A stretch of 45,281 nt of DNA from Oscillibacter sp. ER4 (GTDB lineage: Bacteria > Bacillota > Clostridia > Oscillospirales > Oscillospiraceae), in NCBI RefSeq assembly GCF_000765235.1, contig NZ_JPJG01000006.1:1-45281 (forward strand), written 5' to 3'. The notes beneath the pieces are model-generated. The model did no database searches. It saw nothing but the letters and a program-made list of their open reading frames with translations, and was not told the DNA's origin. The translations under genes and the position numbers were made by a program. Shown here piece after piece: positions 27,813-39,356 of this stretch (its first letter is position 1; the number at the start of each line of letters is the position of its first letter).

Positions 27813-27841
27813 TTGACGTGTGCTTTTCACGGTGCTATGAT
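27813..27841 (+). promoter_or_regulatory. Promoter of the Met-leader/metNIQ operon
   Basis: TTGACG and TATGAT are separated by exactly 17 bases. The start near 27848 gives a leader of about 36 bases before the leader peptide ATG. The longer in-frame ATG at 27818 falls inside this promoter and so cannot be used from this transcript. Confidence 0.8.
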
Positions 27842-27883
27842 ACCCACAACCTCAATATGATTTTCGGAAAGGATTTCGACGAA

Positions 27884-28006
27884 ATGTTCTCCTACACTTC
27901 TCGAATGTTAATGTGCATGAACATGGACATGGCGATGCCGATGCCCACGATTGCTCATGCTCATTTTCCTGCCCGATACGCACAGGAACGAAATTGCCGC
28001 CGCTGA
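27884..28006 (+). CDS. Methionine-rich leader peptide, 40 residues (putative attenuator)
   Basis: The peptide begins MFSYTSR and continues MLMCMNMDMAMPM, with Met at residues 8, 10, 12, 14, 16, 18 and 20, so an ATG falls every six bases from 27905 to 27943. The rest (PTIAHAHFPARYAQERNCRR) ends at TGA 28006. AAAGGA lies ten bases before the ATG. The peptide lies between a strong promoter and a terminator in front of metN. This is the layout of an amino-acid attenuator leader such as TrpL or HisL, here for methionine. Stalling of ribosomes short of Met-tRNA is the expected signal. A metal-binding peptide rich in Met, His and Cys is the main alternative. Confidence 0.72.
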   Translation: MFSYTSRMLMCMNMDMAMPMPTIAHAHFPARYAQERNCRR

Positions 28007-28086
28007 TTGAAAGCGCGCAGAAGGGTCTTGCCACCCGAACATCGTTTGACCTGAAGCGGGGAGCTCATGAGCTCCCCGCTTTTTTT
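27915..28086 (+). promoter_or_regulatory. Attenuator with mutually exclusive pairings in the Met leader
   Basis: Four segments can be paired by eye. Segment 1, GCATGA (27915-27920, among the Met codons), pairs with TCATGC (27955-27960) in segment 2. Segment 2, GCTCATGCTC (27953-27962), can instead pair with GAG-CT-CATGAGC (28061-28072) with a two-base bulge. That stretch is segment 3, part of the terminator. Segments 3 and 4 form the terminator itself. A ribosome stalled on the Met run would cover segment 1, free segment 2 and let 2:3 form, so transcription continues. The logic is that of classical attenuators. The pairings are inferred from sequence and energies were not computed. Confidence 0.55.
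28055..28086 (+). terminator. Leader terminator before metN
   Basis: AGCGGGGAGCT pairs perfectly with AGCTCCCCGCT over CATG (the whole 26-base stretch is palindromic), followed by a run of seven T that begins with the last base of the stem. It stands 31 bases before the metN start and so must be read through for expression. Confidence 0.92.
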
Positions 28087-28116
28087 GTTTGCTTTTGGGA
28101 TAAAGGAGGAATTCAC

Positions 28117-29163
28117 TTGATCGAACTCAAGAACATTTCCAAGGACTTCGGCTCGGGCGAAAAGGCCGTGCACGCCGTGCGCGACGTGTCGCTCTCCATC
28201 GGCTCGGGCGAGATCTTCGGGATCATCGGCTTCTCGGGCGCGGGCAAGTCCACGCTCGTGCGATGCATCAACCTTTTGGAGCGGCCAAGCTCCGGCAGCG
28301 TCTTCGTCGCGGGACAGGACTTGACGGCGCTCTCTGCCAAGGATCTGCGCGCGGCGCGCAAGAAGATCGGCATGATCTTCCAGCACTTCAACCTGATGCC
28401 GTCGCGCACGGTGGCCGGAAACGTCGCCTACCCGCTCAAGGGCAGCGGCCTGAGCAAGGAGGATATCCGGAAGAAGGTCGCAACGCTCTTGGAACTCGTC
28501 GGCATCGGCGACAAGGCGGACGCCTACCCCAGCCAGCTCTCCGGCGGACAGAAGCAGCGCGTCGCCATCGCCCGCGCCCTTGCCAACGACCCACAGGTGC
28601 TTCTGTGCGACGAGGCGACCTCCGCGCTCGACCCGCAGACAACGAAGGCGATCCTGCACCTTCTCAAGCACCTCAACGAAACGCTCGGCATCACGATCGT
28701 GCTCATCACGCACGAGATGGCTGTCGTCAAGGAGATCTGTGACCGCGTCGCCGTCATGGAATACGGCCGCGTCGTCGAGCAGGGCGAGGTCTTCACGGTC
28801 TTCGCTGAGCCCAAGCAGGACATCACGAAGAGCTTCATCCACACGACCTCGAACCTCCAGAAGGTCGAAGCGCTCATCGCCGAGGATTCCCCCGTCACGC
28901 GTCTCCAGCCTGGCGAGCTCATTGTCCGCCTGTCCTATGTTCAGCGCAACGTCAACGAGCCGATCATCTCCGCCGTGTCGCAGATGTTCAACGTCTCGCT
29001 CAACATCATTTTCGCCGATATCACCATCGTGCAGGATTCCCCCATCGGCGGAACGGTCGCCATCATCAGCGGCGAGAAAAAGCAGATCACGAAAGCGATC
29101 GAATACCTGATCGAAAAAAATGTTGGAGTGGAGGTCATCAAAGATGCAAGAGCTGATCGTTAA
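28117..29163 (+). CDS. metN: Methionine ABC transporter ATPase MetN
   Basis: The product has 348 residues from TTG 28117, seven bases after AGGAGG; no ATG fits. It has Walker A GFSGAGKST, Q-loop IFQHFNLM, signature LSGGQKQR, Walker B VLLCDEATSA and H-loop ITHEMAVV. A C-terminal NIL/ACT-like domain (about 270-345, ELIVRLSYVQRNVNEPIISA) is diagnostic of MetN. In E. coli MetN this domain binds methionine and shuts transport down when the inside pool is high. It is the first transport gene after the Met leader and overlaps metI by 20 bases. The TTG start may lower its translation. Confidence 0.95.
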   Translation: MIELKNISKDFGSGEKAVHAVRDVSLSIGSGEIFGIIGFSGAGKSTLVRCINLLERPSSGSVFVAGQDLTALSAKDLRAARKKIGMIFQHFNLMPSRTVAGNVAYPLKGSGLSKEDIRKKVATLLELVGIGDKADAYPSQLSGGQKQRVAIARALANDPQVLLCDEATSALDPQTTKAILHLLKHLNETLGITIVLITHEMAVVKEICDRVAVMEYGRVVEQGEVFTVFAEPKQDITKSFIHTTSNLQKVEALIAEDSPVTRLQPGELIVRLSYVQRNVNEPIISAVSQMFNVSLNIIFADITIVQDSPIGGTVAIISGEKKQITKAIEYLIEKNVGVEVIKDARADR

Positions 29164-29824
29164 CATTGCCCCGAACCTTGCAAGCAAGCTGCCGGACTTT
29201 TATAAGGCCCTCGGCGACACGATGCTCATGGTGCTCTGGTCGGGCCTCATCTCGTTCGTATTCGGGCTTCTGCTCGGCGTGGTGCTCACGGTGACAAAGC
29301 CGAACGGCATTTTGGAGAACAAGGTCGTCTACCAAATTCTCGACAAGCTCGTGAGCCTGTTCCGCTCCATCCCGTTTATCATCCTACTGACGTGGGTCAT
29401 GCCCATCACGCGTGCGCTGGTCGGCACGGTGCTCTATGTGCGCGGTGCGATCGTGCCGCTGGTGTTCGGCTCAGTGCCGTTTTTCACCCGTCAGGTCGAA
29501 AGTGCGCTCGCCGAGCTCGACGGCGGCCTTATCGAGGCGGCGCTCTCGATGGGCTCGAGCCCGCTTGAGATCATCTTCCGCGTGTATCTCAAGGAGAGCA
29601 TCGCGGCCATCGCGCGCGGCACGACCATCACGATCGTGAGTCTCTTAAACCTCACGGCCATGGCCGGCGTCGCCGGCGCGGGCGGCCTCGGCGACTTCGC
29701 CATCCGCTACGGCCACGACCGCAACATGGCCGACATCACGAACGTCACCGTGCTCGTCCTTGTGCTCATCGTCTGCGTCATCGAATTTGCCGGCGGACGC
29801 ATCGTCAAAAAGAACACGCATTAA
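29144..29824 (+). CDS. metI: Methionine ABC transporter permease MetI
   Basis: The product has 226 residues from ATG 29144, with GGAGG nine bases upstream, overlapping metN. It has five hydrophobic segments and the ATPase-coupling EAA loop in LDGGLIEAALSMGSSPLEII. A further conserved stretch is LLNLTAMAGVAGAGGLGDFA, typical of MetI. It forms the homodimeric membrane channel of the MetNIQ importer. Confidence 0.95.
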   Translation: MQELIVNIAPNLASKLPDFYKALGDTMLMVLWSGLISFVFGLLLGVVLTVTKPNGILENKVVYQILDKLVSLFRSIPFIILLTWVMPITRALVGTVLYVRGAIVPLVFGSVPFFTRQVESALAELDGGLIEAALSMGSSPLEIIFRVYLKESIAAIARGTTITIVSLLNLTAMAGVAGAGGLGDFAIRYGHDRNMADITNVTVLVLVLIVCVIEFAGGRIVKKNTH

Positions 29825-29888: not shown

Positions 29889-30779
29889 ATGAAGCTCAAA
29901 AAGTTCTTTGCCCTCACCCTTGCAGCCGCCACGCTCGCCCTCGCACTGACCGCCTGCGGCTCCAAGGCCGGCGACTCCGCCGACAACAGCGATGCCAACA
30001 CCGACAATCAGACCGGCGAGACCGTGACCGTCAAGCTCGGCGTGGTCGGCGGCATCTATGACGACCTGTGGGCGAGCGCGAAGGCCGCGCTCGCCGACGA
30101 GGGCATCGACCTCGAGATCGTGCAGTTCTCGGACTACGTGACCCCGAACAACGCGCTCGCCAACGGCGACATCGACCTCAACGCCTTCCAGCACCGCATT
30201 TATCTCCAGAACGAGATCGACAACTACGGCTATGCGATCCAGAACATCGGCAACACCTTCATCATCCCGCTGAACCTCTACTCCCAGAAGGTCAGTTCCG
30301 TTGACGAGCTCAAAGACGGTGACGTCGTCGCCATTCCCGACGATCTGACCAACGGCGGCCGCGCGCTCAAGGTGCTCGAAGCCGCGGGCCTCATCGAGCT
30401 CGACCCCAACGCCGCCTTCAACCCCACCGTTGACGATATCACGAGCTACAAGGTCAACATCACCATCGAAGAACTCAAGGCCAACACCATCCCCTCCGTC
30501 CTGCCCGACGTGGCCGCCGCGGTCGTGAATGGCAACTACGCGCTCGACTTTGGCCTCAAGACTGACGAGGCCATCTACAAGGACAGCGTCCTCGACGTGG
30601 AGGAGTACTGGAATCTGATCGCCGCGCGCACCGCTGACATCGAAGACCCCGACACCGCCGCCATCTATGAGAAGGTCGTCGAAGCCTTCCAGTCCAGCGC
30701 GACGGAGGACGTGTTCAACAACACCTTCGGCGGTTACTTCATCGCAGTGGGCTGGAATCAGGACCTGATCAATCAGTAA
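29889..30779 (+). CDS. metQ: Methionine-binding lipoprotein MetQ
   Basis: The 296-residue product has a lipobox (LALALTAC, Cys 23) after a basic N-terminus, an acidic linker, and the NlpA/MetQ domain. Marks include VKLGVVGGIYDDLWASAK, a VEIVQFSDYVTPNNALANGD-like segment and DLNAFQHRIYL. It captures methionine or derivatives outside the membrane and delivers them to MetNI. In studied MetQ proteins D-Met and N-formyl-Met can also be carried. An ACGGAGG-type site precedes the ATG. A long GC hairpin follows the stop codon. Confidence 0.94.
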   Translation: MKLKKFFALTLAAATLALALTACGSKAGDSADNSDANTDNQTGETVTVKLGVVGGIYDDLWASAKAALADEGIDLEIVQFSDYVTPNNALANGDIDLNAFQHRIYLQNEIDNYGYAIQNIGNTFIIPLNLYSQKVSSVDELKDGDVVAIPDDLTNGGRALKVLEAAGLIELDPNAAFNPTVDDITSYKVNITIEELKANTIPSVLPDVAAAVVNGNYALDFGLKTDEAIYKDSVLDVEEYWNLIAARTADIEDPDTAAIYEKVVEAFQSSATEDVFNNTFGGYFIAVGWNQDLINQ

Positions 30780-39092: not shown

Positions 39093-39130
39093 AACGCCAA
39101 CAATTTCAAGCGCCCGATCGCGAGGTCGGG

Positions 39131-39292
39131 AAGATAGAGGCGCGGCTGACAAAAGTAGCGCGTTCGCACCGGCACAGGAAGCCGGAGCGCGCGAAAGGGG
39201 ATGCCGCCGAAGTGGAAACTGTTCCTGTGCCGTTTGCCGCTGGTTCGTCGGAGAACATCCGCCGGACTGTCACGTATGTGGAGCGCTATCGA
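39131..39292 (+). promoter_or_regulatory. Lysine riboswitch (L-box) aptamer
   Basis: The closing stem is GATAG (39133-39137) with CTATC (39286-39290). Inside are the conserved L-box blocks in order: GATAGAGGCGCGG, ACAAAAGTAGCG, GCGAAAGGGGATGCC with GCCGAAGTGG, CGCTGG, and ACTGTCACGTATGTGGAGCG. These are the nucleotides of the five-way junction that binds lysine in the family. It precedes a terminator and a polar amino acid ABC operon, so lysine should switch the operon off. The rest of the 38902-39486 gap holds the terminator at 38916, the promoter at 39064 and the hairpin at 39357. Confidence 0.93.
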
Positions 39293-39356
39293 GGTCGGCA
39301 AGCTGTTTATCCCCCCAAAGGTGATGACCGGTTTGCCGGATTGCAGTACAGTTGCA

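Follow-up and report, generated by a model that had tools for sequence, protein, structure and literature searches.

The 45,281-nucleotide stretch of Oscillibacter sp. ER4 DNA analysed here, referred to as the window, very probably carries ahead of its metNIQ genes a ribosome-mediated methionine leader-peptide transcription attenuator that senses the charging of Met-tRNA. The original prediction had proposed this reading, and it was supported by sequence comparisons in which the element tracked methionine genes in 53/53 leaders and its antiterminator was conserved. The leaders share their parts and the order of these parts, they are associated with methionine genes, and they have kept two mutually exclusive complementarities, one between the tail of the leader ORF and the terminator and one between that tail and the leader's own Shine–Dalgarno (SD) and start region. 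Such an element would be a third, translation-based system where methionine genes of Firmicutes are thought to be S-box or T-box territory. Methionine is also an odd case for attenuation, because the one synthetase that charges elongator Met-tRNA also charges the initiator tRNA needed for translation of the leader.

Anatomy of the leader and its operon

The features of the region, all on the forward strand, are listed here with the basis of each assignment.

27813–27841 (+): promoter-like TTGACG-17-TATGAT, with −35 at 27813–27818 and −10 at 27836–27841, read from the sequence
27849–27874 (+): leader 5′ region with SD, called segment A (sequence)
27884–28006 (+): leader ORF of 40 codons plus stop (sequence; related leaders)
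27905–27943 (+): seven alternating Met codons, the presumed stall site (sequence; codon scan)
27952–27973 (+): segment B, ORF tail 3′ of the Met run, able to pair with the 5′ arm and loop of the terminator (duplex computation)
28055–28073 (+): segment C, terminator 5′ arm and loop, the partner of B (duplex computation)
28053–28086 (+): intrinsic terminator with a 13-bp stem and seven T, stem at 28053–28082 and T run at 28080–28086 (sequence)
28117–29163 (+): metN, ABC ATPase with NIL domain, start TTG at 28117 (Pfam PF00005, PF09383)
29120–29824 (+): metI, permease (Pfam PF00528; name from operon position)
29889–30779 (+): metQ, NlpA-type lipoprotein (Pfam PF03180)

All of the elements named in the original prediction, that is the promoter, the SD, the 40-codon ORF, the seven alternating ATG codons and the seven-T terminator followed by metN, were found again when the sequence was re-read. 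The SD-like sequence GGAAAGGA precedes the ATG at 27884, and the peptide encoded at 27884–28006 is MFSYTSRMLMCMNMDMAMPMPTIAHAHFPARYAQERNCRR, followed by a stop codon; within codons 8–20, ATG alternates with another codon and hence recurs every six bases. The terminator has 13 bp, a loop of 4 and a ΔG of −24.1, and the stretch 27848–28110, which contains it, folded more stably than shuffled sequences (z −3.1). For the window MetN the best NCBIfam model was MetN TIGR02314 (E 9e-127, below the model cut-off). On the same strand upstream of the leader lie TatD and, farther off, metG.

Scanning the window with Rfam at gathering score gave two matches, a lysine riboswitch at 39127–39296 (+) and a c-di-GMP-I-GGC riboswitch at 2254–2340 (−), both away from the metN leader. 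At that leader, neither RF00162 (SAM-I/S-box) nor RF00230 (T-box) matched at gathering score, which agrees with the earlier statement that both motifs are absent there.

Methionine-rich leaders in related genomes

Five alternating ATG codons were found somewhere in 135/300 genomes of the host's family, so that the ATGNNN run was rejected as a sole marker. When 50 such loci were inspected, 12 of them (nine distinct) were leaders ahead of met genes, 23 were frames of more than 100 codons and 15 were shorter frames having no met gene of our reference set, which comprised metN, metI, metQ, metA and metY only, within the next 1500 bases. Since the nine distinct leaders (before metN, metQ, metA or metY) were chosen after their setting had been seen, a fairer figure comes from a peptide profile that was built from eight of them and run blind on 400 family genomes. 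This profile matched 39 genomes at E ≤ 1, and among the best 24 of 40 listed places (L083–L106, nine of which were already known) 23 were leaders directly ahead of a methionine gene; the other, L104, was not such a leader. An order-wide profile matched 4/394 genomes at E ≤ 0.1, with L193 genuine and L194 not a leader. A profile of the window's sub-type matched 28/120 genomes at E ≤ 1, where L198 and L199 were genuine besides the window among those inspected, and L200, L201, L206, L208 and L212 were inspected and found not to be leaders. Class-wide, 8/291 genomes matched at E ≤ 0.05; among those inspected, L314 and L315 were genuine besides the host, and no leader was present at L316, L318 or L320.

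The resulting set comprised 53 leaders including that of the window, 28 of which were obtained without regard to the neighbouring gene (23 by profile, together with L193, L198, L199, L314 and L315) and 25 from inspection of the DNA before metN. In all 53 the first recognised gene 3′ of the leader was a methionine gene, being metN in 30, metQ in 13, metY in 6 and metA in 4, with at most 235 nt from the leader stop to that gene. As for the reference genes, NCBIfam identified the reference MetA as homoserine O-acetyltransferase and the full-length reference MetY as O-acetylhomoserine aminocarboxypropyltransferase/cysteine synthase, both above cut-off, and the best match of the MetQ of L035 was the MetQ family, below cut-off. 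This uniform setting bears upon whether the Met/Cys-rich product, as a small protein or nascent chain, could instead sense a metal such as copper. MxM and Cys motifs are able to bind copper, and nascent-chain sensing of copper is on record in the accessible part of one report (PMC9973294). The position of all 53 leaders ahead of methionine transport or synthesis genes, and of the antiterminator strand in the ORF tail, where a switch coupled to translation requires it, nevertheless makes copper sensing hardly credible.

For a survey of metN itself, the gene was located through its NIL domain in 63/130 family genomes, at 64 places. The upstream DNA of 63 loci was taken, leaving out the window's own, and 60 gave a metN match; L302, L303 and L309, where the match was absent, were left out. 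The search for Met-repeat ORFs before metN in related genomes, which had been suggested together with the original prediction, proved productive: counting short ORFs with at least 5 Met in 14 residues, and setting aside one repeat located 2.7 kb off in L291 as well as an additional ORF in L295, a Met-rich leader was found upstream in 25/60 loci. A T-box preceded metN in 10/60, three of them at the Rfam threshold (L249, L266 and L283) and seven just under it (77–92 bits versus 93, E 2.3e-15 or better). Among recognisable elements ahead of metN in the sampled family, the Met leader was thereby the most frequent. Below the survey's Met threshold were two minimal leaders with a terminator before metN, MQTQTKKIALSMMMC in L257 and MKRFVTTMMMR in L279, which end in MMMC and MMMR, respectively, directly before the stop. 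Reading the upstream DNA of 18 named metN loci gave four Met leaders (L113, L117, L118 and L182). The Met/Cys leader of L117 (Lachnoclostridium phytofermentans), MRTVNLINTMNMKMCCNNGCMCNSMPNTVRSKSGFL, is followed by a terminator before metN, and this species lies outside the host's order as judged from the record name.

Other counts also pointed to a specific enrichment of Met codons. Met-rich short ORFs upstream of the 60 metN genes numbered 27 in sense and 1 in antisense orientation (178,822 bases), and when every codon was scanned likewise, ATG clusters occurred in 23/60 loci, with codons other than ATG clustering in at most 2/60 loci in sense and at most 3 in antisense. A −35/−10 pair scoring at least as high as that of the window was found ahead of 48/53 leaders, the window included, versus 1/530 shuffled upstream stretches. 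Over the leaders the +1 frame was open in 0/53 and the +2 frame in 31/53, so that an open Met frame by itself proves little.

At all 53 leader loci, Rfam gave no match to a regulatory family at gathering score, and analysis of ten leader peptides with Pfam and NCBIfam returned no family, only single chance-level matches; annotation pipelines based on these resources would therefore miss the leader. The Rfam result also counts against an unrecognised riboswitch or T-box with the ORF being incidental, which, even though T-boxes or S-boxes precede other metN genes in the family and class, we consider very improbable, since the elements that the leaders share are the promoter, SD, Met codons, ORF tail and terminator.

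The codon contents of the leaders are relevant for what is being sensed. Summed over the 53 leaders ATG occurred 403 times, and the second commonest codon was TGC (118), which raises the question of whether Cys codons among the Met codons are stall sites as well, giving joint sensing of methionine and cysteine. The conserved MCM, the alternative name cysteine synthase for the MetY family and, in the accessible part of the report, the Streptomyces lividans metL peptide ending CMCRRMCAF (PMC8079986) all fit such joint sensing. We regard it as unlikely, however, because five TGC within 14 codons occur in just 1/60 loci, the window's run holds a single Cys, and the nearest genes are those of methionine transport or synthesis.

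The peptides themselves were conserved, with M13, M15, M19, C20 and M21 present in at least 90% of 29 aligned leaders and Ala next in most, and these MCM residues exceed what a codon count requires, which counts against codon-only sensing. They could suggest nascent-peptide arrest, in which free methionine or SAM is sensed by MCM..MCM within the tunnel and the peptide sequence, not Met-tRNA, determines stalling; peptide-level conservation near such genes is also seen in a separate short-ORF peptide, LVRANFRFGRM, before metY. Against arrest stand the same anatomy in the window's sub-type, which is without MCMCM and RRA, the variation of internal Met number from 3 to 11, and the existence of the minimal MMMC and MMMR forms, and we find arrest distinctly improbable. 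Stalling at Met codons for want of charged Met-tRNA is the reading that we prefer.

Additional short ORFs were noted near met genes. The metY-associated peptide, in its fuller form (F)ExLVRANFRFGRM, was seen at ten places (L037, L095, L314, L315, which is the same as L323, and L324–L329), where the ORF either ends at that point or continues into a short, often Cys-rich tail, and in L037, L095, L314 and L315 it stands in tandem with a Met leader. From its sequence, this ORF looks like a nascent-peptide sensor. Short ORFs ending in -ERM before the stop (SGERM, SHERM, KFRNERM) precede metN in L260, L276 and L281 and follow a Met leader in L070 and L297. In the former three loci the next stretch looks by eye complementary to the SD of metN, which suggests switching at the level of translation, with a single Met codon ahead of the stop.

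The leader was also seen within the host genome and its relatives. The other metQ-metN locus of the host (contig C70) has its own leader, MKTSYSANCMMMPMMRMFSMCMLCHGENGHFLSETV, with a terminator, and the genus mate G006 has its own leader before metQ-metN (L300); among the DNA matches listed for the genus's other 17 genomes, none covered the window's leader. Leaders of the window's sub-type were MYSLDYRMLGCMDMMMPMFFHAHLSPTR in L113, MTHGYGMMMRGMDMAMMPMPTISCAPAHEGF in L118, MTYGYGMMMRGMDMAMMPMPTFLRASAQMF in L198 and MTHGYGMMMEMMDMAMMPMPTLSRATNSIVSL in L199, and each of these, as well as the looser relative L271, has kept both the Met run and the terminator. A terminator kept in close relatives without the Met run, which had been named as the observation that would speak against an attenuator, was thus not what these loci displayed. 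Among the loci found, the window metN was closest to that of L113, from an Agathobaculum MAG by the depositor's label, with 81% identity, while the metG of the L113 genome had only 59% identity to the window metG; for this reason a horizontal transfer of metNIQ together with its leader is probable. The window metG was 79% identical to that of L118, an Oscillospiraceae bacterium, and matched that of L144, another Oscillospiraceae bacterium and the closest for metG among seven genomes tested, with 88% over residues 3–378 and 74% over 382–654. No Met-rich short ORF was present in the 2500 bases before metN of L144. The two pieces of that metG match (88% and 74%) lie 84 bases apart at contig C1 326134–328167 in one open frame of 681 aa, and by its sequence this metG would be a gene with a small insertion or a mosaic gene.

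Alternative pairings and the proposed switch

An intrinsic terminator was found within 120 nt of the leader stop in 53/53 leaders, compared with 13/159 shuffles, and the terminators begin 13–73 nt past that stop. Pairing was analysed in 49 leaders, after dropping the near-duplicates L045, L098, L099 and L315, by comparing the pairing of a segment with its own terminator to that with the terminators of the other leaders. Taking the last 30 nt of the ORF as B and the terminator from its 5′ arm through the loop to the fifth base of the 3′ arm as the target, we found a mean of −16.7 kcal/mol with the own terminator versus −12.7 kcal/mol with those of others (z −8.8, with 0/5000 permutations as good), in a segment chosen post hoc, as the clear signal came after windowing. 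The first test, with 30 leaders and the whole region past the last Met against the whole terminator, reached moderate significance with p 0.0006, and gave p 0.012 for the 5′ arm plus loop and p 0.12 for loop plus 3′ arm. Of the intervals flanking B, −60 to −30 was borderline (z −1.7), −45 to −15, which overlaps B, gave z −3.2, and −15 to +15 was null against the own terminator; counted from the last Met (47 leaders), the B:C signal peaked 10–40 nt downstream. The antiterminator originally drawn between 27953–27962 and 28061–28072 is present in the window, with a two-base bulge, and is the pairing that is conserved across leaders.

Segment B was also complementary to the SD and start of its own leader, with z −7.4 for A:B across leaders, and the pairings of SD with terminator (A with C), of spacer with B and of far 5′UTR with B were all null. 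Both B:C and A:B held in subsets of 41, 20, 7 and 5 leaders of falling similarity, those holding B:C including 20 leaders with <68% and 7 leaders with <62% tail identity. If B has to pair with either the SD or the terminator 5′ arm, the 5′ arms are expected to be SD-like, and purine motifs of our own choosing were present in 31/49 of them (shuffled mean 8.9). The other pairing of the original prediction, of 27915–27920 (GCATGA) within the Met run with 27955–27960 (TCATGC), is an exact complement in the window and to that extent stands, but across leaders the Met run paired with B weakly (z −3.6) and the SD/start was the stronger partner.

In the window, pairing of B (27952–27973) with 28055–28073 was computed at −20.3 kcal/mol, a value reached by 2/48 foreign terminators (rank 3rd of 49) and also equalled by 36/300 shuffles of the window's tail. 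Its A:B pairing was weak, with 33/48 foreign tails pairing as well, and L113, having the closest metN, showed a poor B:C (17/48 other terminators as good). From these comparisons the window appears to be a somewhat diverged member, with its antiterminator in place and its protector doubtful, in which pairing of the Met run with B may serve as protector instead of the SD/start.

By analogy with established attenuators, we infer the start of transcription, the stalling, the direction of regulation and the Met-tRNA signal as follows. RNA polymerase would start at about 27848 and a ribosome would begin the leader at 27884. With ample Met-tRNA, the ribosome would pass the Met codons into B and on to the stop, thereby covering B, so that the terminator would form and metNIQ be off. 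Under a shortage of charged elongator Met-tRNA, the ribosome would stall in the Met run and leave B free, whereupon B would pair with the nascent terminator 5′ arm and loop and the polymerase would read on into metNIQ. On a leader without a ribosome, in most relatives, B could pair with its own SD/start, and the terminator could then form.

Equilibrium folding failed as a proof of switching, as the terminator was kept in both ribosome positions. For a ribosome halted on the first Met codon of the run, the terminator stem probability exceeded 0.7 in 49/53 leaders, and the mean over the 53 leaders was 0.91 when stalled versus 0.97 with the ribosome at the stop; in the window it was 0.97 in both cases. 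With the terminator likely at equilibrium even upon stalling, the switch would have to be kinetic, acting before the 3′ arm appears.

A wider reading of the whole leader class is possible, though we lean somewhat against it. The ORF tail B, being anti-SD-like, would choose between hiding the leader's own ribosome binding site and disrupting a terminator with a 5′ arm that imitates this SD. The leader would then control both its own translation and transcription, read initiator as well as elongator Met-tRNA, be the most frequent form of methionine control ahead of metN in this family, and move horizontally with metNIQ.

Relation to known attenuators and leaders

Three sequence features of ribosome-mediated leader-peptide attenuators were present in the window: a short ORF with a start signal and a cluster of Met codons, an intrinsic terminator between that leader and metN, and a strand 3′ of the control codons that complements the terminator 5′ arm, the latter being kept across leaders. 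Judged on such criteria, the element would be one that works like the trp-type attenuators. With the enterobacterial systems (trp, his, thr, leu and pheA) it shares a short ORF rich in codons for the regulated amino acid and antiterminator/terminator alternatives, placed before genes for that amino acid. It differs from them in using Met, with codons that alternate rather than run. In the trp attenuator the alternative partner of the antiterminator strand is the region of the control codons, whereas here this strand, B, is part of the ORF tail and pairs alternatively with the SD/start of the leader itself.

The Met T-box, as in the met operon of Lactococcus lactis (PMC7058034, accessible part), and the S-box (SAM-I) likewise act by premature termination before methionine transport genes of Firmicutes, and they sense tRNA charging or SAM. 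In these, unlike in the window, the RNA itself binds the tRNA or SAM and there is no translated ORF. Leader attenuators for histidine in Firmicutes, including Eubacteriales, are said in the accessible parts of two reports to replace T-boxes (PMC2965389, PMC9413887); they similarly have a leader peptide ahead of a terminator, but concern histidine, several His codons in a row and other genes.

An earlier survey of actinobacteria had, in its accessible part, detected no conserved regulatory RNA structure upstream of methionine operons (PMC1262725). Searching the open-access literature for methionine leader-peptide attenuators, a set outside which the classic Gram-positive comparative study lies, we found S. 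lividans metL as the sole precedent and nothing for Clostridia, in line with the original statement that none was known in this group. That leader precedes metNIQ, encodes a Met- and Cys-containing peptide and was proposed as an attenuator (PMC8079986, accessible part). Unlike that of the window, it belongs to a leaderless transcript and its peptide has two internal Met close to the C-terminus; as far as that part of the report goes, no typical terminator was found, and the proposal concerns one species, an actinobacterium (PMC8079986). As far as the literature searched extends, the leaders described here are new among terminator-type systems with regard to both amino acid and phylum, and new also in that the SD and ORF tail of the leader itself would serve as the strands of the switch.
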